DNA from: Pelovirga terrestris
Lineage (GTDB): Bacteria > Desulfobacterota > Desulfuromonadia > Desulfuromonadales > Geopsychrobacteraceae
Direction: 5' to 3'
DNA length: 64,000 bases
Assembly (NCBI RefSeq): GCF_014773365.1
Contig: NZ_JACWUN010000009.1
Coordinates: forward strand, 62,001 to 126,000
Part shown: positions 46,832 to 58,224 of the stretch, one piece after another
Position numbering within the stretch: position 1 is the stretch's first letter
Layout: each line of letters starts with the position of its first letter
The notes under the pieces: generated by a model
Told to the model about the DNA's origin: nothing
The model's database searches: none
What the model saw: only the letters and a program-made list of their open reading frames with translations
Program-made: the position numbers and the translations under genes

Positions 46832-49261
46832 ATGGCACTAGCCGATTTACACGTTCATTCGAAATATTCCAATCACCCGTCCGAGTGGTTTCTGCAGCGC
46901 CTTGGCGCTTCTGAATCCTATACCGAACCGGAAACAATCTACGCCCTTGCCCGCCAGCGCGGCATGGACTTTGTCACCATCACCGATCACAATCGGATCA
47001 AGGGCTCTCTTGAGCTGGTGGAGAAATATCCGGATCGCTGCTTTACCGGGGTGGAATCAACCGCCTACTTTCCCGAAGACGGCTGCAAGGTTCATATCCT
47101 GATCTATGGTCTTGATCGCGAACAATTTGCCCGCATCCAGAATCTGCGAAAAAATCTCTATGAATTGCGTGATTATCTCAAAGCAGAAGATCTGGCCTGT
47201 GTCGTCGCTCACGCCACCTACGCGGTCAATGATCGCTTGAGCCTGGAACATCTGGAAAAACTGTTGCTGTTGTTCAATCATTTTGAGGGACGTAATGGCA
47301 GTCGCAGTCCATTGCACAATGATTCGTTATCCATGGTTCTGTCGCAACTGACCGCTGATGATATCGAGCGTCTGGAACAAAAACACGGCATCGCTCCCTG
47401 GGGAGAAATGCCGTGGAAAAAGGGTCTGACCGGCGGTTCCGACGATCACGCCGGTTTTTTTATCGGCAAAACCAGCACCAGGGTGGTAGCGAAAACTCCG
47501 GCAGAATTTATTGACCAGATCAAGCAGGGTCGCTTGCTGCCGCAAGGACGGCAAAACAACTTTCAGGGACTGACCTTCGCTATATACAAGATCGCTTTCG
47601 ATTTTTCTCAGCACAAAAGTACCGCCTTTGCCCACTCGACCTTGAGCGATCTGACCCGCTACCTGTTCTCTGAGGAAAAGCTCAGCTTCAAGGATCGTCT
47701 GCGCTTAAACCGTATGCGGTCACAGAAGAATAATCATATCTACCAAAGCATTGTCCGGTTGATTGAAACCAGCCGTAACCTCGATCAGGACGACATCGAT
47801 ACCCGCCTGGAGCTGCTCTACGACTGCCTCAGCGATATTTCTGATCAGTATTTCCGCTCCCTGCTGGAATCCCTCACCACCAACCTGGAAGAGATGGATC
47901 TGATCCGCATCATCGCTGGTCTCTCCTCCAGTATTCCGGGGATTTTTCTCTCCGTCCCCTTTTTCTCGGCTTTCAAGCATATGTTCGGTGACCGCCGGCT
48001 GATCAACAGCCTGGTCACCAGCCTTGGCCATGTCAGCGAACCCAAGGCTAAAAAGATTCTGTGGATGACCGACACCTATACCGACCTCAACGGGGTCTCC
48101 ATGACCCTGCAGACCATCGGCCGCCTGGCGGATGAAACCGGGTACGGCATTCGAATCCTCTCGAGCCTGACCGCAGCGCAGCAGGAACAGAACCTGCCTG
48201 CAGCGAGCCTCGTGATTCCGCCGCTGCATTCTTTCAAGCTGCCTCATTACGAGGAGTTGACCATTAGTGTTCCGTCGGTGTTGCGTATGCTCAAGGCGAT
48301 CTACGAGGAAGACCCTGACGAAATCTATGTTTCGACACCGGGGCCGGTCGGTCTGCTTGGGGTGCTCATCGGTCGCATGCTGGGAACCCCGGTGAAAGGG
48401 ATCTACCATACCGACTTCACCATGGAGGCCGAGGCGATCATCGACCAGCCGGAGGTTGCGGCCCTGATTGAGAAGTACAGCCAGTGGTTCTTCAATCAGT
48501 TCGACACCCTGCTGGTACCGACGACGGAGTATATGGAGCTGCTGAAAAAGCGCGGCTATCGTCATCGCCACATGGAACTGTTCCGGCGTGGGTTGCGGAC
48601 TGAGCATTTCAAGCCCCAGCCGGTCACGATCGGCAAATCCTGTAACCATTCCCGGTTGCTCTATGTCGGGCGTATTTCCAAAGACAAAAATCTTGATTTT
48701 TTGATCGATGTCTATCGCCGTATTCGCCAACAGCATGCCGGCATTTCCCTGACCATTGTCGGTATTGGCCCTTACCTGGAAACCCTGCGGACTCATTGTT
48801 CCGATCTGCCCGACGTTACCTTTACCGGCAAGGTTCCTTACCCTGACCTGCCGGAGCTCTACAATCGTCACGATCTGTTCCTGTTCCCCAGCACCACCGA
48901 CACCTTCGGCATGGTGGTCCTCGAAGCCCAGGCCTGCGGTCTGCCGGCACTGGTCTCCAACATCGGCGGACCACGCGAGATCGTCCGCGACGGACAAACC
49001 GGTTATGTTCTCGATGTGTCATCAACCCAGGGCTGGGTAACGCGCCTGGAGGAGCTGCTGGCTGATCTGGCACATGGCGGTAACCTGTGTCGATTGTTGG
49101 GAAGAAACGCGCGGGAACGGGTCGAGTCGACCTATAGCTGGAATACCATCCTGGAGGATATGGTGCGCCCGGAGATTGAGTCTGTTCGCCCGTTGCGCCA
49201 CCGCCAGCCCTCACCGATTAAGAGGATGCTGAAGTTCGCGTCGAATATGATGGTGCACTGA
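46832..49261 (+). CDS. PHP-domain / glycosyltransferase family 4 fusion
   Basis: 809 residues. Residues about 1-260 are a PHP phosphoesterase domain with metal ligands in DLHVHS, TDHN and a late GGSDDHAGFF; residues about 405-800 are a GT-B glycosyltransferase with GRISKDKNLDFLIDVYRRI and the donor-binding EX7E-type block STTDTFGMVVLEAQACGLPA. No signal peptide or membrane helices. The fusion suggests that a phosphorylated lipid or sugar is processed and glycosylated by one chain. SD AAGGAGAG precedes ATG 46832. It is divergent from phnD, so shared regulation is possible. Confidence 0.85.
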   Translation: MALADLHVHSKYSNHPSEWFLQRLGASESYTEPETIYALARQRGMDFVTITDHNRIKGSLELVEKYPDRCFTGVESTAYFPEDGCKVHILIYGLDREQFARIQNLRKNLYELRDYLKAEDLACVVAHATYAVNDRLSLEHLEKLLLLFNHFEGRNGSRSPLHNDSLSMVLSQLTADDIERLEQKHGIAPWGEMPWKKGLTGGSDDHAGFFIGKTSTRVVAKTPAEFIDQIKQGRLLPQGRQNNFQGLTFAIYKIAFDFSQHKSTAFAHSTLSDLTRYLFSEEKLSFKDRLRLNRMRSQKNNHIYQSIVRLIETSRNLDQDDIDTRLELLYDCLSDISDQYFRSLLESLTTNLEEMDLIRIIAGLSSSIPGIFLSVPFFSAFKHMFGDRRLINSLVTSLGHVSEPKAKKILWMTDTYTDLNGVSMTLQTIGRLADETGYGIRILSSLTAAQQEQNLPAASLVIPPLHSFKLPHYEELTISVPSVLRMLKAIYEEDPDEIYVSTPGPVGLLGVLIGRMLGTPVKGIYHTDFTMEAEAIIDQPEVAALIEKYSQWFFNQFDTLLVPTTEYMELLKKRGYRHRHMELFRRGLRTEHFKPQPVTIGKSCNHSRLLYVGRISKDKNLDFLIDVYRRIRQQHAGISLTIVGIGPYLETLRTHCSDLPDVTFTGKVPYPDLPELYNRHDLFLFPSTTDTFGMVVLEAQACGLPALVSNIGGPREIVRDGQTGYVLDVSSTQGWVTRLEELLADLAHGGNLCRLLGRNARERVESTYSWNTILEDMVRPEIESVRPLRHRQPSPIKRMLKFASNMMVH

Positions 49262-49743: not shown

Positions 49744-49956
49744 ATGCGTTGTCCAGTGTGTGGAAGTTACGATCAGAGTGTTTTATCAATGAAATCCAAG
49801 CAATTTGCCGAGGGGTTGGTGGAATGTTCGGGTTGCGGCAGCTCCTGGGCGATCAATCATGGTCATGCTGAAATGGTTGTTGATGCCCATCCCCAGAGTT
49901 TCCTGACGGGGCAGACTGAATGTGTCGAAGCTGACGATTATGTATGGGCCGCCTGA
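49744..49956 (+). CDS. Zinc-ribbon miniprotein
   Basis: 70 residues with SD AGAGAGG before ATG 49744. CPVC at 3-6 and CSGC at 28-31 form one zinc ribbon; an acidic tail follows (VEADDYVWAA). No export signal. It resembles small DNA- or protein-binding ribbon proteins, but I cannot name a family. An inverted repeat upstream may be its operator. Confidence 0.65.
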   Translation: MRCPVCGSYDQSVLSMKSKQFAEGLVECSGCGSSWAINHGHAEMVVDAHPQSFLTGQTECVEADDYVWAA

Positions 49957-50142: not shown

Positions 50143-50343
50143 ATGGAAGCACATAATTTAAGTGTAGCGGGACCCTGTCGTTGTGGTGGTCAGGTCAAAA
50201 TTTTCGGGCCCAGCGATTTTGCTCCACACAGCCATTGGGGACTTTACTGCTCGCATGATAACTGTGAGCATATGGTGAACGGCGAAACCCTGGAGGCCGC
50301 TATTCTCGAGTGGAACCACAGCCTGGAACCGGCCCACAGTTGA
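50143..50343 (+). CDS. Lar-like CxxC miniprotein
   Basis: 66 residues with SD AAGGAGAG. CRCGG near residue 13 and CSHDNCEHM near 36 make one zinc site, and the end (ETLEAAILEWNHSLE) has the WN motif typical of Lar restriction-alleviation proteins. Lar proteins modulate type I restriction, but no restriction genes are in the window, so function is open. It converges on the HhH gene. Confidence 0.6.
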   Translation: MEAHNLSVAGPCRCGGQVKIFGPSDFAPHSHWGLYCSHDNCEHMVNGETLEAAILEWNHSLEPAHS

Positions 50344-50412: not shown

Positions 50413-50811
50413 TTAGTTCTTTTTTGAAGTCTTTTTCTTTGACCCGGACGATTTCTTTTTGTCCTTGCTCTTTTTGGCTTGAGTGGAATTCTTTTTATCT
50501 TCTTTCGCAGATTTTTTCTTCAGATCCTTGTTCTTCTCCTTGCTCTTCTTTTTCTTCTTCTCGACTTTTTTGTCCTTGTCTTTTTTGCTGGAGTTACCAG
50601 GTGGCACAGGAGTGTCTGCTACCGCAGCTCCGATCAATAGCCGGGCGGCCTCGATCACCTGCCCGGCACGGATGGTATTGAATCCTTTGATGGCAGCCAG
50701 GTCGCCAATTCGTTTAGCGGCGAGATCTTCAGCGCTGTGGATACCATGATCAGCCAGCAAAACAGCAGTGGTCGGACCGATTCCAGGGACTTTTTCGATG
50801 GATGTTGGCAT
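50413..50811 (-). CDS. HhH protein with lysine-rich tail
   Basis: 132 residues from ATG 50811 (SD AAGGAG). Residues about 5-65 form a helix-hairpin-helix unit (VPGIGPTTAVLLADHGIHSA ... IKGFNTIRAGQVIEAARLL) that typically binds DNA without sequence preference. From about residue 75 on the chain is almost only Lys, Ser, Glu and Asp, like histone H1 tails and bacterial AlgP-type proteins. Such tails bind DNA or polyphosphate. It is the last gene of the CHAD-ParA-CYTH-RHH operon, 22 bp after the RHH gene. Confidence 0.75.
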   Translation of the reverse strand: MPTSIEKVPGIGPTTAVLLADHGIHSAEDLAAKRIGDLAAIKGFNTIRAGQVIEAARLLIGAAVADTPVPPGNSSKKDKDKKVEKKKKKSKEKNKDLKKKSAKEDKKNSTQAKKSKDKKKSSGSKKKTSKKN

Positions 50812-50833
50812 GTGAATTCTCCTTGATGGTGGG

Positions 50834-51004
50834 TCAGCTCTGTTGGTGCTCCACAACAAACCTGCGGATAAAACGCCTGATTTCACGGGCTGCGCTGGTG
50901 TCCAGTTCCTCACATAAGGCAACAAACTGGTCCCGTTCGGTAGCGTTGATACGGATCAGCAGTTGACTGTCTTTTTTGCCGCCCTTTTTCTGTTTGTTGC
51001 TCAT
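50834..51004 (-). CDS. Ribbon-helix-helix miniprotein
   Basis: 56 residues. A basic tail (SNKQKKGGKKDSQ) leads to a ribbon strand LLIRINATERDQF and two helices (VALCEELDTSAAREIRRFIR), matching Arc/ParG-type ribbon-helix-helix proteins. Its ATG overlaps the CYTH stop by 4 nt (ATGA). RHH proteins with basic tails often partner ParA ATPases or repress their operon. A palindrome at 53812-53826, upstream of the first gene, could be its site. Confidence 0.75.
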   Translation of the reverse strand: MSNKQKKGGKKDSQLLIRINATERDQFVALCEELDTSAAREIRRFIRRFVVEHQQS

Positions 51005-51513
51005 TTTTCCTCGTCGGTCTGTTGGCCGGTACCTTGACCAATATCCGCCGGTAAACCGGCGGTCGCCAACATGGCATTGCTAAAGGCACGATCCCGGGTG
51101 ACCTCACGGCCGACAAAGTCCGGCGGAACAAATTCGCGACTGTCGGCAACCGTCGCAAATTCAACTTCAAGCAGTATCAGCGGTTCCAGCGCACCGCGAA
51201 ACAGATCCATTTCCAGACAATAGCCTGACTGATCCAAGATATAGCGGGTTTTTTCAACCCGTTTTCCTGCGGTCAGGGGCCAGAGCATGGCGAACAAATC
51301 GCTGTTGATTTCTTTTTCCTGTTCCTGCCGATCCAGACCACTGCCCCGCTTCAAGGTCATGGTGCAGCACCCGGCGCGGTTGCGGATGCGCAGTTCCTGT
51401 TGTGTTTCAAGAAGCAGATAACCCTGATCGATGTTTTCACCCTGGTGGTCATCCAGAAGATCCGCCGGCAGGGAAGCAACCAGAAACTTGCGTTCAATCT
51501 CCCTGTTCGTCAT
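51001..51513 (-). CDS. CYTH-domain triphosphate tunnel metalloenzyme
   Basis: 170 residues. The ExExK signature EIERK is at residues 5-9, followed by a beta-strand series (QELRIRNRAGCCTMTLKRG, CLEMDLF, LILLEVEF) of the tunnel fold. Members hydrolyse inorganic triphosphate or longer polyphosphate, or make cAMP. Its start is directly adjacent to the ParA stop and its end overlaps the RHH start. With the CHAD gene in the same operon, polyphosphate is the likely theme. Confidence 0.88.
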   Translation of the reverse strand: MTNREIERKFLVASLPADLLDDHQGENIDQGYLLLETQQELRIRNRAGCCTMTLKRGSGLDRQEQEKEINSDLFAMLWPLTAGKRVEKTRYILDQSGYCLEMDLFRGALEPLILLEVEFATVADSREFVPPDFVGREVTRDRAFSNAMLATAGLPADIGQGTGQQTDEEK

Positions 51514-52269
51514 CTATCCAATACCTTCTAGCTGGAGTTCGACCTCTTCCCATAACGCCAGATAAGCCCTGTTCGCCTGGCGCCCGCGGGCAAAGAGGTC
51601 GAGGGGTGCGCGATGGACCCCCATTCTTTCAACATCGGTTGAATAGGGGATGGCATGGCGCAGAATACGCTTGTACCGCTGGCGCATGCCCAGGGCCGTA
51701 TCACGATGCAGCTGCTTGCGCGCATCGACCATGGAGAAAAACGGCAGAAGCTTTTTGCGGTCATAGTCCTTGTCTTTAAAAAATCGCACCAGCTGATCAT
51801 AAGTGCGTTCCGATAAGGGGGTAGGAATCACCGGCACCAGAATCAGATCGGCGGCGACAAAGATATTCTCGGCCAGGCGACTGACGGATGGTGGACAGTC
51901 GAGCAGGATCAGATCGTAATCCTGACTGATTTTTTTCAGCAGGCGCCGCAACACCGTTTCTCTGGAATCCGTCTGTTTTAACAGAATATCGAGATTGCGC
52001 AGGGATCGTTGGGCCGGAATAAGATCCAGGTTGGAATAGTCACTTTCCCTGATCTGCCCCATAAGGGCATCCGTTTGTTCTAATGTCTGTTTTTTCCACT
52101 TGCTGCCCGCTTCCGGGCGCACCCGGAAATAAAAGGAAGAGGCCCCCTGGGGATCAAGGTCGATCAACAGGGTTCGCTGCCCTGATTGTGCTGCTCGGTA
52201 GGCCAGATTGACAGCGGCGGCGGTTTTTCCGACCCCGCCCTTGAAGCTGTAACAGGCAACTATTTTCAT
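51514..52269 (-). CDS. ParA/McdA-like ATPase
   Basis: 251 residues with the deviant Walker A KGGVGKT, signature lysine K10 and P-loop K15, LLIDLDPQGASSFYF, and LILLDCPPSV. This is the ParA/MinD family used to place plasmids, chromosomes and protein cargoes along the nucleoid or membrane. There is no amphipathic MinD tail, so nucleoid binding is more likely. No parB gene is nearby; the partner is probably a protein of this operon. It overlaps the CHAD gene by 4 nt. Confidence 0.9.
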   Translation of the reverse strand: MKIVACYSFKGGVGKTAAAVNLAYRAAQSGQRTLLIDLDPQGASSFYFRVRPEAGSKWKKQTLEQTDALMGQIRESDYSNLDLIPAQRSLRNLDILLKQTDSRETVLRRLLKKISQDYDLILLDCPPSVSRLAENIFVAADLILVPVIPTPLSERTYDQLVRFFKDKDYDRKKLLPFFSMVDARKQLHRDTALGMRQRYKRILRHAIPYSTDVERMGVHRAPLDLFARGRQANRAYLALWEEVELQLEGIG

Positions 52270-53780
52270 GATCCACCATCCTGTGCCGCTGCATCTGTAA
52301 ATAGTTCTTGAAACTGTTCGGCGATCTCGGTGCCGGAAAAAGCCGCTATCATGTCAACCACCTGCCCCCGCTCATGTTGTCGTTTGCTGTAAAGTACGGC
52401 GATCAGTCCGTTGATAGCATCCCGCTCGGCGGTCTTTATTCCAGCACCGCTCAGCAAAGACTCAAGGAATAAGCATTGAGAGGAATAATCATTAAAACGT
52501 CCGAGATTGTCCTGTAACTTTTTCAGCGCCTTGATCAATCGTCGCAGCTGATCGTAAGAAAAGAGTTCAGCAAACAGTTCAAGCAGATATCTCAACTTTT
52601 TGGCTTCGATGCGTACTTCATGAACCTGCTCGTCGGGGGTTTCAGCGTCAATGCGGGCACCATATCGTTGTATCTTCTGATATTGTGACAAAATCTTGCG
52701 GCTGACCTGTTTCTTTATCGCCATACCTGAATGCCGGGCAGAGAGATCCGGTGGTTCTTTTAGCTGCAGCTTAAGTAGCTGAGCATGTTCAAGGTAATCT
52801 TCCTTTTTGAGGGTTACCGTGACCTTGCGCCAGACCTGTTGGCGACGGCGCTTCAACCGTTTAAACAGGTCATCAAGCCCAGGTTGGAAATGGGTCGGCA
52901 GCATCGCCCGGTAGTTATCCTGATCAAGCAGAAAAACATCGAGGTCACGCAGTCGGTTGGTGGCTTGAGCGATCTTTTTCAACTCGCTACGCAGCGTCTG
53001 GTAACGTTTTGGCGGAAGTGCTTTTTTAAACAGGCTGAGCAATGAGCGCGCCTTGCGTAAATTGACCCGATACTGATGGGTAAATTCGGTATCGATGTCG
53101 GCGATCAGCCCTTCTTCCTGTTGCCGTGCCAGGCGTAGCAGTTCAGCGACCATTCCCATAACCGCTTCTGTTGTTGGTTGATCCGGATTAAGATGAAACG
53201 CCGGTTTCGTTGCAGGAGGGTCCGGGTTCAGGCCGCAGCGTTTAAGTAGAAATTTGAGGGTTATTGCTGACTGGCAGGCTGTGGCTACTGAATTGAGGTC
53301 ATTTACAATAGCTTGCGCCTCCTGATCATAGCCACGCAATGACTGTATTTTCAGAAAAAAGGAGGTCGTTGGTGTTGCGTCAACAAGATGATAAAGGGTG
53401 GCGCGGGCAACAATTTTGTCATCGTTATTCAGAAAAGCCGAAGACTGCTCCTGCCATTGACTGCTAAATTGAGGCAGCAGCGCGCGTACGCAGACCAGGG
53501 GGTTCAATGCCTCGAAAAGGGGGTCATTTAGCTGTGTGATAAAGGATGGCCACCGCTTGGCATGAACAGCGACACGAAGTTGATCATCGCGATCATAGAG
53601 CTCCAGGCGCTTGCCGGCGACATGCAGCAGCACTTGGTCGGACATCCAGATCGACCAGTCGACGGTATCCAGGACACAAAGTTGGCGCTGCTCAAGTCTT
53701 TCTGCGCATACCTTCATTCTGGTTAATTGTGCCAACTCAGAAAGAGAGAGCGATTTTTTAAGCTCAAGATAATAATTCAC
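52266..53780 (-). CDS. CHAD-domain protein with degenerate CYTH-like N-terminus
   Basis: 504 residues from GTG 53780. Residues about 1-190 look like a decayed CYTH half (LCVLDTVDWSIW), as in CYTH-CHAD fusions. Residues about 215-495 are a CHAD helical bundle with the basic and histidine positions of the family (HQYRVNLRKARSLLSLFKKA, HEVRIEAKKLRYLLELFAEL). CHAD domains bind polyphosphate and target proteins to its granules. It heads a minus-strand operon with ParA, CYTH, RHH and HhH-Lys genes, all within about 25 bp of one another or overlapping. Confidence 0.88.
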   Translation of the reverse strand: MNYYLELKKSLSLSELAQLTRMKVCAERLEQRQLCVLDTVDWSIWMSDQVLLHVAGKRLELYDRDDQLRVAVHAKRWPSFITQLNDPLFEALNPLVCVRALLPQFSSQWQEQSSAFLNNDDKIVARATLYHLVDATPTTSFFLKIQSLRGYDQEAQAIVNDLNSVATACQSAITLKFLLKRCGLNPDPPATKPAFHLNPDQPTTEAVMGMVAELLRLARQQEEGLIADIDTEFTHQYRVNLRKARSLLSLFKKALPPKRYQTLRSELKKIAQATNRLRDLDVFLLDQDNYRAMLPTHFQPGLDDLFKRLKRRRQQVWRKVTVTLKKEDYLEHAQLLKLQLKEPPDLSARHSGMAIKKQVSRKILSQYQKIQRYGARIDAETPDEQVHEVRIEAKKLRYLLELFAELFSYDQLRRLIKALKKLQDNLGRFNDYSSQCLFLESLLSGAGIKTAERDAINGLIAVLYSKRQHERGQVVDMIAAFSGTEIAEQFQELFTDAAAQDGGS

Positions 53781-53811: not shown

Positions 53812-53826
53812 ATATACATTGTATAT
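53812..53826. promoter_or_regulatory. Palindrome upstream of the CHAD-ParA operon, candidate operator
   Basis: ATATAC-ATT-GTATAT is a perfect 6-bp inverted repeat about 32 bp before the GTG start. RHH proteins bind short palindromes, and one is encoded in the operon, so autorepression is a reasonable inference. Confidence 0.4.
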
Positions 53827-54165: not shown

Positions 54166-56085
54166 TTACCGGCGCACCCGTGAGAGCTTAAGCATTCGCG
54201 AGATGCGGTCGATGGTGATGGTGAGGGCGACCATCATCAGCAGATAGGTGCCGGCTTTTTCAAAACGGAACCACTCGAAATTGAAGGTGAAGAAAAATCC
54301 GAGCCCGCCGACACCGACGATGCCGAGGACAACGGCGGCGCGCACGTTGCTTTCAAACTGAAAGAAGGTATAAGTCATCCAGTCCCGCCATGAAATCGGG
54401 GCCGCCACCGAGCCGAAGCAGGCCATACGCGACCCCATGAACGACTGCTCGAAACGGCGATAGGGAATATTGTCGACCGTCTCGCTGAAGACTCGAACCA
54501 GTACTCCCATGCTGTGAATGGATATGGCGATTGTTCCCGCCACTAGGCCTGGTCCAAAAAAGGCGATGAAGAGAAAGGCCCACATCACCTCTGGAACTCC
54601 CCGCGCGATCAGACCGACGATGCGGGCTGCCGTCATGTGGATAAAGCGCAGGAGGCGGATCAACGGGTGGGACGTTTCACCGGTGAACTGATCCGGTTCC
54701 AGTTGAAACGCCAGTGTATGAGGATAAGTCAAAAGGATCGCTCCCAGCATGCCGAGCAGCGTACCGACGACGGCGATGGCTAACGGGACGGTGGACGATT
54801 TTATCACCCGCCAGACGAACCACTTCTGAAGTTCCCCTTCCCAGGCAACCCACGCGGCAGGCCGGTAAAATTCGAGGGGTCCATAATTGTCAAAGAGGGA
54901 GACGGCTTTGCCGCCCGCGCGAAACTGAGCCGCTGCCTCCGTATCCCCACGGCCCAAGACGGCAAGATCGAGGTCGGGATGCAGCAGCCGTTGGAAAAAA
55001 CGCAAATTCCCCCAGGAATCCCCCGAAACGAGCTCTGCAGCGGGTTTGAGATAATTTCTAGACTCGCCACCGGGTGCGGCATTATTCCCCCATCCCATGA
55101 ACCAGAAGGACCAGGTGAAGGCGATCAAGATGACGGCGGCGCTCACATAAGCGCGGGAGAGAGTGGCAAAGGTGCTCCGGCTTTTGACGGCCTGGGGATG
55201 ATTTGGATCATTTCGAAGTTGACGGCGGATGGAATTTGAGACGAGATCGACGGTCAGCGTCAGAAAAAGGGTGAAAAGAATCAGCGTACTGACCTTGTCC
55301 CAGGCTCCGAAGCGCACCTGATACCAGATCTCGGCGCCGAGGCCGCCACCGCCGACAGCACCGATAACGGCGGCGTTGCGGATGGCACACTCGGCGCGCA
55401 TCAGGGTGAAGCTCAGAACGCTGCGGGCGGCCAGTGGGCGAATGCCGTAGAGGAAGGTCTTCAGGCGACCGGCGCCGAGGACACGGACCTGCTCGTACTC
55501 ACGCTCGTCGATACTGTCCCACAGCTCGCTGTAAACCTTTGCGAGAATCCCGGTGATATTGAGTGCCAACGCCAGAGCGCCGGTCAGAGGGCCGAGACCA
55601 ATGAGGGCAACGAGAATGATCGCCCAGATGAAGTCGGGGACGGCGCGCAGAACGTCCTGAAGGAGTCGGCAGGCGGAACAGAGGACCGCCGAAGGTGAAC
55701 GAAGAGGGAAATTGCGCCGCCAACTGACGGCGTTCTCCTCTCCGACACACACAGAACGTGCAGAGCCTATGGCGAGGAGAAAACCGAGCACCACGGCGAT
55801 GGCCGTGCCGAGGATCGCCGCTGACAGGGTTTGTAGCGTCAACTCCCAGGAGTGTTTCAAAAACTCGCCGCTGAGCTCTGGAGAAGAGAAGGCGCCCAAC
55901 CACAGGGTCATTCGTCCGAGCGCCTGAGCGCGCTTCTGCGCTTCGGTCAGAGAAGTGACATCCCAATCTGCGGCGAAAAAGGAGGCCGCAACCAGCAACA
56001 GGATCGCCAGCAGAGCGACGAAATGCCCCCAGGGACGTTTCTGCGAATAATGGGTGAGAGCGGATGCCGGCGAAATGTCCGTCAT
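54166..56085 (-). CDS. phnE: Fused double PhnE-type permease
   Basis: 639 residues holding two PhnE permease units in one chain. The first (about 60-295) has DSIDEREYEQVRVLGAGRLK and GAVGGGGLGAEI; the second (about 420-635) has VDNIPYRRFEQSFMGSRMAC and GIVGVGGLGFFF. Between them is a soluble stretch of about 90 residues after another helix. It forms the membrane part of a third phosphonate-type importer, replacing separate PhnE1 and PhnE2. Its start overlaps the phnC stop by 4 nt. Confidence 0.88.
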   Translation of the reverse strand: MTDISPASALTHYSQKRPWGHFVALLAILLLVAASFFAADWDVTSLTEAQKRAQALGRMTLWLGAFSSPELSGEFLKHSWELTLQTLSAAILGTAIAVVLGFLLAIGSARSVCVGEENAVSWRRNFPLRSPSAVLCSACRLLQDVLRAVPDFIWAIILVALIGLGPLTGALALALNITGILAKVYSELWDSIDEREYEQVRVLGAGRLKTFLYGIRPLAARSVLSFTLMRAECAIRNAAVIGAVGGGGLGAEIWYQVRFGAWDKVSTLILFTLFLTLTVDLVSNSIRRQLRNDPNHPQAVKSRSTFATLSRAYVSAAVILIAFTWSFWFMGWGNNAAPGGESRNYLKPAAELVSGDSWGNLRFFQRLLHPDLDLAVLGRGDTEAAAQFRAGGKAVSLFDNYGPLEFYRPAAWVAWEGELQKWFVWRVIKSSTVPLAIAVVGTLLGMLGAILLTYPHTLAFQLEPDQFTGETSHPLIRLLRFIHMTAARIVGLIARGVPEVMWAFLFIAFFGPGLVAGTIAISIHSMGVLVRVFSETVDNIPYRRFEQSFMGSRMACFGSVAAPISWRDWMTYTFFQFESNVRAAVVLGIVGVGGLGFFFTFNFEWFRFEKAGTYLLMMVALTITIDRISRMLKLSRVRR

Positions 56086-56924
56086 ACCTTGGCCGACAAA
56101 ACCACGTCATCGAGATGCATCGCTCGATATTCGGCCCCGTACAGTTCGAGAAGGAGTTCGCGGTTGATTTCCGAAGGAGCGCCCTGCCAGAAGAGGCGCC
56201 CTTCTCGCAGGGCGATGACCCGCTCGAAATGTCCCTCGAGCAGCTCCAGGGTGTGGAGGTTGACCAGCAGGGTCGTTCCCATGCGTGAGGCGATATCCGA
56301 AAGCAGGGCGATAATCTCACGCCCGAGACGGATATCCAGCTGGCTGACCGGCTCGTCGGCGAGCATCACTCTTGGCTGTTGCACCATCAGCCGTGCAATG
56401 GCTACGCGCTGCTGCTGGCCGCCCGAGAGCTCTCCCGGCATCGACCAGAGCTTCTCGCTCAGTTCGACTTCACCCAGTGCCTTTCGGGCACCGGCGAGAT
56501 CCTGTGGCCAGAGAAGAGACAGGATCGCCCGCGGCAGACTCCAGTGACCGAGATGCCCCATGAGCACGTTGTGGACAACACGCAGGTGCGGAATAAGGTT
56601 ATCGTTCTGATAGAGAATCCCGATTTCGCGCCGCAGTCCCCTCAAAGCGTTGCCGCGAAGATGACCGGTATCGTGCCCCAGTGCGGTGATTCGCCCCTCA
56701 CTCGGTTTGAGGACCGCACACAAAAGACGGAACAGGGTCGTCTTTCCGGCTCCGGACGGACCGATCACTGCGACCCGCTCACCCTCCCTGATCGAGAGAG
56801 AGATATTCTTCAGGACCTGCGTAGGTCCGAAACTCTTACCGACATTTTCGGCAACGAAGACCGTCTGCGCGGCACTCTGCGCGCTACCTACACACGACGC
56901 AGCCGTTTCAATAACTGCTTCCAT
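56082..56924 (-). CDS. phnC: Phosphonate-type ABC transporter ATP-binding protein
   Basis: 280 residues with Walker A GPSGAGKTT, signature [15 protein letters not shown] and Walker B VMLADEPVSQLD. The PhnC-like block REIGILYQNDNLIPHLRVVH is present. Overlaps the fused permease gene by 4 nt. It lies 82 bp after the binding-protein gene. The base composition is visibly more GC-rich than the CHAD operon. Confidence 0.9.
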   Translation of the reverse strand: MEAVIETAASCVGSAQSAAQTVFVAENVGKSFGPTQVLKNISLSIREGERVAVIGPSGAGKTTLFRLLCAVLKPSEGRITALGHDTGHLRGNALRGLRREIGILYQNDNLIPHLRVVHNVLMGHLGHWSLPRAILSLLWPQDLAGARKALGEVELSEKLWSMPGELSGGQQQRVAIARLMVQQPRVMLADEPVSQLDIRLGREIIALLSDIASRMGTTLLVNLHTLELLEGHFERVIALREGRLFWQGAPSEINRELLLELYGAEYRAMHLDDVVLSAKV

Positions 56925-57006
56925 AAATCCTTAACAAGTTCATTGGACAGGAATGTAGGGAATAATGTAAATCCATGGATCCCTGTTGGGACAAATCCTG
57001 GCTATT

Positions 57007-57927
57007 TCACCCGCCGATGTCGACGCCTGATTCGAGCATCGCCCGGTATCCCGCCCATTCATCCAGATCAGCCTCGATGAACTTGCCAGCTTTGAGGTAG
57101 CCGAGGATCTTCCTGCCTTCCTCGGTGTCAGTCGAAAGGCTCAGCAATGCGGCGCGAAGCTCAGCGAGAAGTTTTTCCCCCAGGTCGGTACGGGCCGCAA
57201 GGCAGTAGTTGGTGAAAGCAGGGGACTTGTAGATGATCGGCGCATTTGTCTTGAGCTTGTCACTTGCCTTGTCCCATGAAGCGAAGTTCATGGCGCCGAG
57301 GGTGAAGCTCCCCGCGGCAACCTGTTGCATGACTACATCGTGGCTACCACTGTAAGCGACTGTCCTGAAGACGTTTTCGGGAGACAGACCACTCTGTTCT
57401 GTGAAGAAGTTGCGGGGCATGAGATGGCCGGAGGTGCTGCTCTTGCTACCGAAGGTGAAACTCCACTCCTTCCCTTTCGCGGCTTCGGCGAGTTCCTTCA
57501 AATCATCGACGGGGGAGATTCCTGCTGCGCCGTGGGCGATGAAATAGCTGACGAATCCCTTGTCGATATCGCGGGCACCGACTACGACAAGATCGTCATT
57601 CATCTGCATGTGAGCCTGAGCCGTCGTCACCGCGCCAAGCCATGCAAGATGTGCCCTGCCTGTCGCCAGGGCGGTAACGCTGGCGGCATAGTTTTCCACG
57701 TGCATGTACTCGGTTGGAATCCCCACAGCATCGCCGAGGTGTTTGGCTAAGGCACCGAAGTGCTCGCGCATGCGGTCGGCGTCGCCGTCGTCGGGAATGG
57801 CAGTGATGATGAGCTTTTGTGGCCGCTGATTCTCCACGGCCTTTGCGGTGGGTTCGGTACCGGGCTCACAGGCCGTCAGGGCAAAGACGCTCGCCGTCAA
57901 TAAAAATAGTGAAACTATATATTTCAT
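57007..57927 (-). CDS. phnD: Phosphonate-type binding lipoprotein (PhnD family)
   Basis: 306 residues from ATG 57927, which has AAGGAG upstream; the frame is open further but without an export signal. The leader ends LTAC, a lipobox. The PhnD/phosphite-binding fold is shown by LGAVTTAQAHMQMND, FGSKSSTSGHLMP and YSGSHDVVMQQVAAG. With the C-P lyase operon beside it, this importer probably feeds C-P lyase; phosphite is an alternative ligand. Confidence 0.88.
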   Translation of the reverse strand: MKYIVSLFLLTASVFALTACEPGTEPTAKAVENQRPQKLIITAIPDDGDADRMREHFGALAKHLGDAVGIPTEYMHVENYAASVTALATGRAHLAWLGAVTTAQAHMQMNDDLVVVGARDIDKGFVSYFIAHGAAGISPVDDLKELAEAAKGKEWSFTFGSKSSTSGHLMPRNFFTEQSGLSPENVFRTVAYSGSHDVVMQQVAAGSFTLGAMNFASWDKASDKLKTNAPIIYKSPAFTNYCLAARTDLGEKLLAELRAALLSLSTDTEEGRKILGYLKAGKFIEADLDEWAGYRAMLESGVDIGG

Positions 57928-58224
57928 GTCGATCTCCTTGGGTGGATAGTCGTTATCAGCCACAATGATGGTGCGAAGGCTCATAATGCGGGTGTCAATT
58001 ATCCGAAAGGAGGCGGCGAAAAGCAAACAGGAACTATTAATTAATTCACTTGAGTAGATCGGTTTATTCAATATGTGTGGCAAGTGGTTATGGCTGACGA
58101 ACAGCGTCCCTTGACATAGGATTCCCGACCCGGTGCTGACCAGATACCTTCAATTTTATAAAGAATGTGATTTCAGATAGTTACCCTGAAGCTACTCAGA
58201 AATTACAAAAAAGATAGCAGGTAG
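57928..58224. other. 297-bp non-coding stretch upstream of phnD
   Basis: Contains the presumed promoter of the phnD-phnC-phnE transcript and, at 58086-58140, repeat copy D. No ORF or recognised Pho box. Confidence 0.5.
58086..58140 (-). repeat. Dispersed palindromic repeat, copy D (partial, inverted)
   Basis: Read on the minus strand it gives TCAGCACCGGGTCGGGAATC, CTATGTCAAGGGACGC and a GGTTATGG-like end, matching the left half of copy B with few changes. It is inverted relative to copy C, so the two enclose the phnDCE cassette. Confidence 0.65.

Follow-up and report, generated by a model that had tools for sequence, protein, structure and literature searches.

We analyzed a 64,000-nucleotide stretch of DNA from Pelovirga terrestris (contig NZ_JACWUN010000009.1, positions 62,001 to 126,000; hereafter the window), whose genome is 3.1 Mb in size, and found that five open reading frames (ORFs) on its minus strand form an operon that joins a CHAD protein to a ParA-type ATPase. 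The first gene (52266..53780, GTG start) encodes a 504-aa protein with a degenerate TTM/CYTH-like domain at approximately aa 1-200 and a CHAD domain at aa 211-435. It overlaps by 4 nt the gene for the 251-aa ATPase (51514..52269), which carries the deviant Walker A motif KGGVGKT and is followed with zero gap by the gene for a 170-aa CYTH/TTM enzyme (51001..51513). The CYTH gene in turn overlaps by 4 nt the gene for a 56-aa ribbon-helix-helix (RHH)-like protein with a Lys-rich N-terminal tail (RHH-1; 50834..51004), and after a 22-nt gap comes the gene for a 132-aa protein with an HhH domain and a Lys-rich tail (HhH/Lys; 50413..50811, counted from the ATG at 50811). A preliminary description of this DNA had reported these five genes with their overlaps and gaps, and the ORF and Pfam checks agree with it. 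It had overlooked the TTM-like domain of the CHAD protein and a palindrome, TATACAWTGTATA, at 53813..53825 (upstream of CHAD, 43 nt from its start), which we propose as the RHH-1 operator.

The CHAD protein matches the Pfam CHAD model over aa 211-435 with an E value of 1.3e-52, and its AlphaFold2 model, made with 40 aligned orthologs, has a mean pLDDT of 94.7. When this model was searched with Foldseek, the top match was CtCHAD, with weaker matches to YgiF and other TTM enzymes. After transferring the CtCHAD residue numbering by hand from the alignment, we found that the equivalents of H253, R256, R260, R296, R418 and Y419 are invariant in 40/40 aligned CHADs. Mutating these six contact residues of CtCHAD weakens polyphosphate (polyP) binding (PMC6537752). 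With a CHAD fold and conserved polyP-contact residues, the window protein has the features of CHAD polyP-binding proteins and is predicted to bind polyP. Because these residues are conserved, the sequence data support the preliminary proposal that CHAD would serve as the adaptor to a granule cargo. At the N-terminus, the ExExK motif of TTM enzymes has been lost among the orthologs; E6 is kept in 6/40 and K8 in 8/40.

The ATPase has the hallmarks of the ParA/MinD family, namely a deviant Walker A motif with its signature lysine, catalytic Asp residues and a gene that sits beside a cargo-linked gene. Its best Pfam family is AAA_31 (E 3e-40), K10, K15, D39 and D124 are invariant in 21/21 ParA sequences, and at 251 aa the protein is too short for an N-terminal helix-turn-helix (HTH) domain. 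The nearest solved relatives are 8ray, annotated as 'ParA family protein' (profile E 1.6e-36), and Soj, whereas solved McdA was matched weakly (E 2e-13). In a tree of 115 rows, made by a quick method under one model with Soj as sole outgroup, the 105 ParA rows split from the 10 Soj rows with 100% SH-aLRT. Loci L095, L121 and L122 were excluded from this tree, and rows sharing at least 85% identity with a retained row were merged into it, which reduced 124 rows to 105. Plain chromosome partition of the Soj/ParA kind was rejected, as the window ParA lies outside the Soj rows. Mapping the presence of an adjacent CHAD onto the ParA tree took 7 changes, as compared to a mean of 22 for shuffled labels.

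To follow the gene pair across genomes, ParA relatives were collected from four sources: a set of 41 genomes, 136 genomes belonging to the order, a sample of 395 genomes of the phylum and one broader scan. At a cut of E 1e-45, which was our choice, 27/136 order genomes and 21/395 phylum genomes match; from the broader scan we kept the best 80 of 486 ParA relatives, so the sample leans towards the ParA of the window. The resulting 127 loci are the window, 46 regions from the sampled genomes and 80 from the broader scan. L122, a duplicate of L032, is included in the 127-locus adjacency count and was dropped for the neighbor-cluster, tree, PPK1/CYTH and palindrome counts (126 loci). We found CHAD directly upstream of parA in 107/127 loci, overlapping it in 84, of which 69 overlap by 4 nt, and a chance neighborhood was rejected on this count. 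In the tree, phyla with an adjacent CHAD are Pseudomonadota, Thermodesulfobacteriota, Verrucomicrobiota (one isolate), Kiritimatiellota (including the isolate Pontiella) and Chloroflexota, the last represented by metagenome bins only, so that a binning error is possible there. CHAD and ParA are an old pair. The preliminary description had made its case depend on gene order being conserved beyond close relatives; this holds for the CHAD-ParA core, which crosses phyla with PPK1, PPX, SixA and CYTH recurring nearby, but the full five-gene set is local, with the window-type RHH in 18/127 loci and HhH/Lys in 19/127. These last two counts include L122 and the decayed L095; they exclude L033, which holds fragments, and L103, where a weak match is on the opposite strand. 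L095 (G071:C2) is a decayed second ParA-RHH-HhH copy in a genome that has an intact copy elsewhere (L094). In L033 (G002:C134), CYTH, RHH and HhH are fragmented while CHAD and ParA are open, and an assembly error is possible.

Presence of the two genes is also correlated at the level of genomes. All 27 ParA genomes of the order have CHAD, as compared to 12/109 of the others (Fisher 1.7e-19, with kinship ignored and species not independent). When only open CHAD frames of at least 480 aa were counted in a further Fisher test, from which G004 and G115 were excluded as their CHADs are apparently cut by contig ends, the figures were 25/25 ParA genomes and 4/12 others. We examined 14 of the loci that have no adjacent CHAD (L119, L120 and L121 were left out), and 11/14 genomes carry CHAD elsewhere, 9 of them as open frames of 504-526 aa. 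The decayed L095 is among the loci with no adjacent CHAD, and so is L177, which has a putative CHAD remnant, read by eye.

The N-terminal TTM-like domain follows ParA closely. It is found in 103/106 ParA-adjacent CHADs, including 63/66 outside the set used to build the profile, and the 3 with no TTM match are short frames at a contig end or within 60 bases of one. In contrast, it is found in 2/11 ParA-less CHADs that we fetched (L203 and L204; G030, with its frame-broken parA, was excluded), all from one order, where ParA-less CHADs often adjoin PPK1 and CYTH. One of these, L205, has its CHAD at aa 17-251 of the frame with no TTM match; the frame (L205:2416-4008) continues into a SixA-like part and is a CHAD-SixA fusion adjoining PPK1. 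Because the domain tracks ParA, we propose the degenerate TTM domain as a candidate ParA contact. The CHAD protein is more likely than the RHH protein to be the ParA partner.

We then looked at polyP genes around the pair. In the order, 26/27 ParA genomes have PPK1, as compared to 27/109 others (Fisher 3.5e-12, again with related species counted as if independent). PPK1 lies within 8 kb of parA in 23/126 loci, and in 15 of these it is on the same strand and directly upstream; PPX lies within 8 kb in 14/126 loci, and CYTH lies within 2.6 kb in 41/126, on the same strand in all. Several lineages have the order PPK1-CHAD-ParA-CYTH-SixA with PPX divergent. In the genome of the window, PPK1 and a PPX are close together on contig C4, outside the window. 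A PPK2-like gene, read from sequence, is found near PPK1-CHAD-ParA at L103:7400-8890. In addition, a glycogen-phosphorylase-like gene, read by eye, is present downstream of parA in L157, L165, L173, L180 and L182. We considered glycogen granules as the cargo for such Methylococcales loci and set the idea aside, because the genomes of L157, L165 and L182, which have no CHAD beside parA, have one elsewhere (a 515-526-aa frame).

The CYTH protein of the window matches Pfam CYTH at E 3.8e-5 (24.0 bits, cut-off 23.2). Aligned to 3typ, it shows ExExK as well as the proposed Tyr/Lys dyad of NeuTTM, with the dyad positions matched by hand and the numbering shifted by one, and ExExK is present in 40/41 syntenic CYTHs. 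Nitrosomonas europaea has a CHAD-ParA-CYTH operon whose CYTH product is identical to PDB 2fbl along the printed alignment, and we take 2fbl and 3typ to be NeuTTM. In this species, NeuTTM acts as a specific tripolyphosphatase (PMC3440374). By sequence, NeuTTM is the closest solved relative of the window CYTH and its syntenic homolog, and we predict the same activity for the window enzyme.

The assignment of the RHH protein is weak by profile, because its Pfam RHH_9 score (E 7.5e-4, 19.8 bits) is below the cut-off of 23.4. Its AlphaFold2 model has a low-confidence tail and two helices (mean pLDDT 73.8) and is compatible with an RHH monomer; against the PDB, the best match was at E 3.2 by Foldseek and at E 0.25 by profile search. 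RHH-1 is found in 18 loci, with fragments in the sister locus L033. In 23 loci, a second family (RHH-2) is encoded right next to the start of CHAD; two of these loci (L164 and L176, both Nitrosomonas) hold fragments only, and L160 holds both families. Each family has its own palindrome upstream of CHAD. The core TACANTGTA is found in 12/16 RHH-1 loci (L122 and L095 excluded) and in L033, in 0/22 loci with RHH-2 alone and in 0/87 others; the RHH-1 loci that lack it are L035, L088, L185 and L160, and the last bears the RHH-2 site. That site, TGACGTCA, is present in the promoter region of 20/21 loci with a whole RHH-2, in 1/2 fragment loci (decayed L164 keeps it and decayed L176 does not) and in 0/103 others, and L145 lacks it with RHH-2 intact. 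Loci that share a family are related to one another, and the matches are therefore not independent events. In the 3.1-Mb genome of the window, TATACAWTGTATA has one exact copy. A sigma-70-like site overlaps the palindrome; it has no evidence value, because 4 such sites were found where 3.2 were expected. Since the RHH type pairs with the palindrome and RHH is absent from most loci, the RHH protein is most simply read as an autoregulator of the operon, perhaps with a second role in activating ParA. Of the two roles given to it in the preliminary description, repressor fits the two families with their separate palindromes, and constant ParA partner does not fit a protein missing from most loci. 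The HhH/Lys protein matches Pfam HHH_5 at E 5.7e-12; as read from its sequence, the tail is Lys-rich and is unlike the KPAA-repeat, histone H1-like C-terminus of AlgP.

Taken together, these data suggest that the five genes make up a positioning system of the ParA type with the polyP granule as its cargo, and we consider it probable that ParA spaces or partitions CHAD-coated granules on the nucleoid. The CHAD protein would coat or grip polyP, as has been shown for homologous CHADs whose contact residues are invariant here. Its degenerate TTM domain may contact nucleoid-bound ParA-ATP and stimulate hydrolysis, and granules, by analogy with McdA and ParA, would then follow ParA gradients and become spaced and shared between daughters. 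CYTH, with the activity shown for the syntenic NeuTTM, would remove tripolyphosphate left from polyP turnover. In some lineages HhH/Lys might be a passive tether between DNA and polyP, in the manner of AlgP, and RHH would repress the operon through the promoter palindrome, as the match of RHH type and palindrome suggests. We also lean, with moderate confidence, towards a broader statement: that this is a widespread class of ParA that moves a polymer granule and not DNA or a protein body, that TTM-CHAD is a pseudo-enzyme repurposed to link polyP to ParA, and that exchangeable RHH proteins with their own operators set the dose.

The ParA-CHAD module bears on how bacteria place polyP granules and pass them on. 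According to the excerpted text of a 2025 review, it remains to be seen whether localization of PHB (polyhydroxybutyrate) or polyP granules costs energy, and among the positioning proteins that the review tabulates, AlgP is the sole one for polyP, with ATP dependence given as 'Unknown' (PMC13052382). Work on Halothiobacillus assigned cargos to ParA/MinD ATPases and nowhere uses the word polyphosphate (PMC10241942). We found no proposal of a ParA for polyP granules in the literature searched, which comprised top-ranked results, with preprints and most subscription papers outside its scope. The module provides candidates for the ATPase, the adaptor, the enzyme and the regulator, in organisms open to experiment; the pair is carried by the tractable Methylotuvimicrobium buryatense 5G (L156) and N. 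europaea (L164). If our reading is right, it would be the first ATP-driven positioning system for polyP granules and would give the ParA family a new cargo.

Several observations weigh against this reading. No CHAD is adjacent to parA in 20/127 loci, and in just two of these, L100 and L105, does the sequence run out within 200 bases upstream. Of the 14 genomes examined for a CHAD elsewhere, 3 give no CHAD match at all. Conversely, 12/39 CHAD genomes of the order have no intact copy of this ParA (one, G030, has the frame-broken parA), so CHAD can act without it. There is no PPK1 match within 8 kb in 103/126 loci, some owing to contig ends, and the sister genome G003 (99% complete) has the operon and no PPK1 match. 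ParA partners typically have a disordered tail of positive charge, which the N-terminus of the CHAD protein does not resemble; the RHH protein has such a tail but is inconstant across loci. When the CHAD proteins of Ralstonia were depleted, there was reportedly no apparent phenotype (PMC6537752). The literature searched gave no localization or deletion data for any member of the module.

A static role for the ATPase was weighed alongside granule positioning. ParA might be a scaffold that, depending on ATP, brings CHAD, PPK1 and CYTH together in one place and controls where and when polyP is made, with no movement or spacing of granules, much as BcsQ-type ATPases are thought to serve cellulose synthesis. 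PPK1, CYTH and SixA do lie in the same cluster in many lineages, and the window ParA is above the Pfam CBP_BcsQ cut-off (51.8 vs 21.3 bits); however, it is far below the cut-offs of both NCBIfam BcsQ models (84.6 vs 157.85 bits and 29.3 vs 399 bits), AAA_31 is much higher in Pfam, and the nearest solved relatives are 8ray and Soj. We retain BcsQ identity only within this alternative, which appears unlikely.

The remaining alternatives give the RHH protein a larger part. It could combine autorepression with a role as an adaptor that activates ParA, a combination reported for ParG and omega, with its Lys-rich tail bridging ParA and polyP. In partners of ParA-family ATPases the N-terminus is disordered and positively charged (PMC10241942), the RHH-1 tail is Lys-rich and the RHH-2 tail is Lys-rich too, often with acidic residues as well. 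Yet neither family was found in 86/127 loci, and in L164, L176 and the sister L033 only fragments of RHH are left while CHAD and ParA are open, which makes such an adaptor decidedly unlikely. A small ParA with no HTH, an RHH protein with a basic tail and an upstream palindrome would also suit DNA partition by a ParF/ParG-like (type Ib) pair, in which the palindrome is the centromere and CHAD a passenger. We regard this as very improbable: with both families and also fragments counted, RHH proteins are found in 41/127 loci (RHH-1 in 18, with fragments in L033, RHH-2 in 23, one locus with both) as compared to 107/127 for an adjacent CHAD, so pairing of RHH with ParA is inconstant; the genome has just one exact site in place of a centromeric repeat array, although degenerate repeats are possible; and the link to PPK1 is left unexplained. 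Positioning of polyP granules by ParA and CHAD remains our preferred reading.

Around the operon, genes read by eye as phosphonate/phosphite-type ABC transporter components (PhnE-, PhnC- and PhnD-like) lie upstream on the same strand at 54166-58083, and the gene upstream of CHAD in L032, from G003 of the same genus, differs from these. Downstream, at 49744-49956 and 50143-50343, are two small Cys-rich plus-strand ORFs, with similar ORFs at the same place in L032. A PHP-domain and GT4 glycosyltransferase gene on the opposite strand from the operon (46832-49261) occurs again in 10 loci, no more than 6.5 kb from parA, and a radical-SAM-like gene, also read by eye, recurs near parA in 8 loci. Between G003 and the window, ParA, CYTH and HhH are 98-99% identical and CHAD just 78%, which may reflect either recombination close to where CHAD meets ParA or rapid evolution of CHAD.

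The module resembles several known systems in part. As in McdAB carboxysome positioning, the gene for a ParA-family ATPase sits beside a cargo-linked gene and a cellular body is the cargo; here, however, the predicted cargo is polyP and the adaptor TTM-CHAD, and solved McdA was matched far more weakly than 8ray. ParF/ParG and delta/omega plasmid partition share with it a small ParA, an RHH protein and an upstream palindrome, but in our loci RHH is inconstant, CHAD is nearly constant and the window has one exact site. Like HhH/Lys, AlgP of P. aeruginosa is a Lys-rich protein, and it is tied to DNA and to the spacing of polyP granules (PMC9239181). In contrast to our operon, the excerpt of that paper mentions no ATPase alongside AlgP, and in the window protein the Lys-rich tail comes after an HhH domain and lacks KPAA repeats. 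The conserved folD-ppk-parA-CHAD cluster of Acidithiobacillus is the same gene association, already published, although the excerpted papers treat copper and cAMP, not positioning (PMC10892726, PMC6416229). Finally, the CHAD phosins CtCHAD, YgiF and PptA likewise have a CHAD with polyP-contact residues, and the TTM-CHAD domain order is that of YgiF; unlike them, the window type has lost the TTM motif ExExK and its gene is coupled to ParA.

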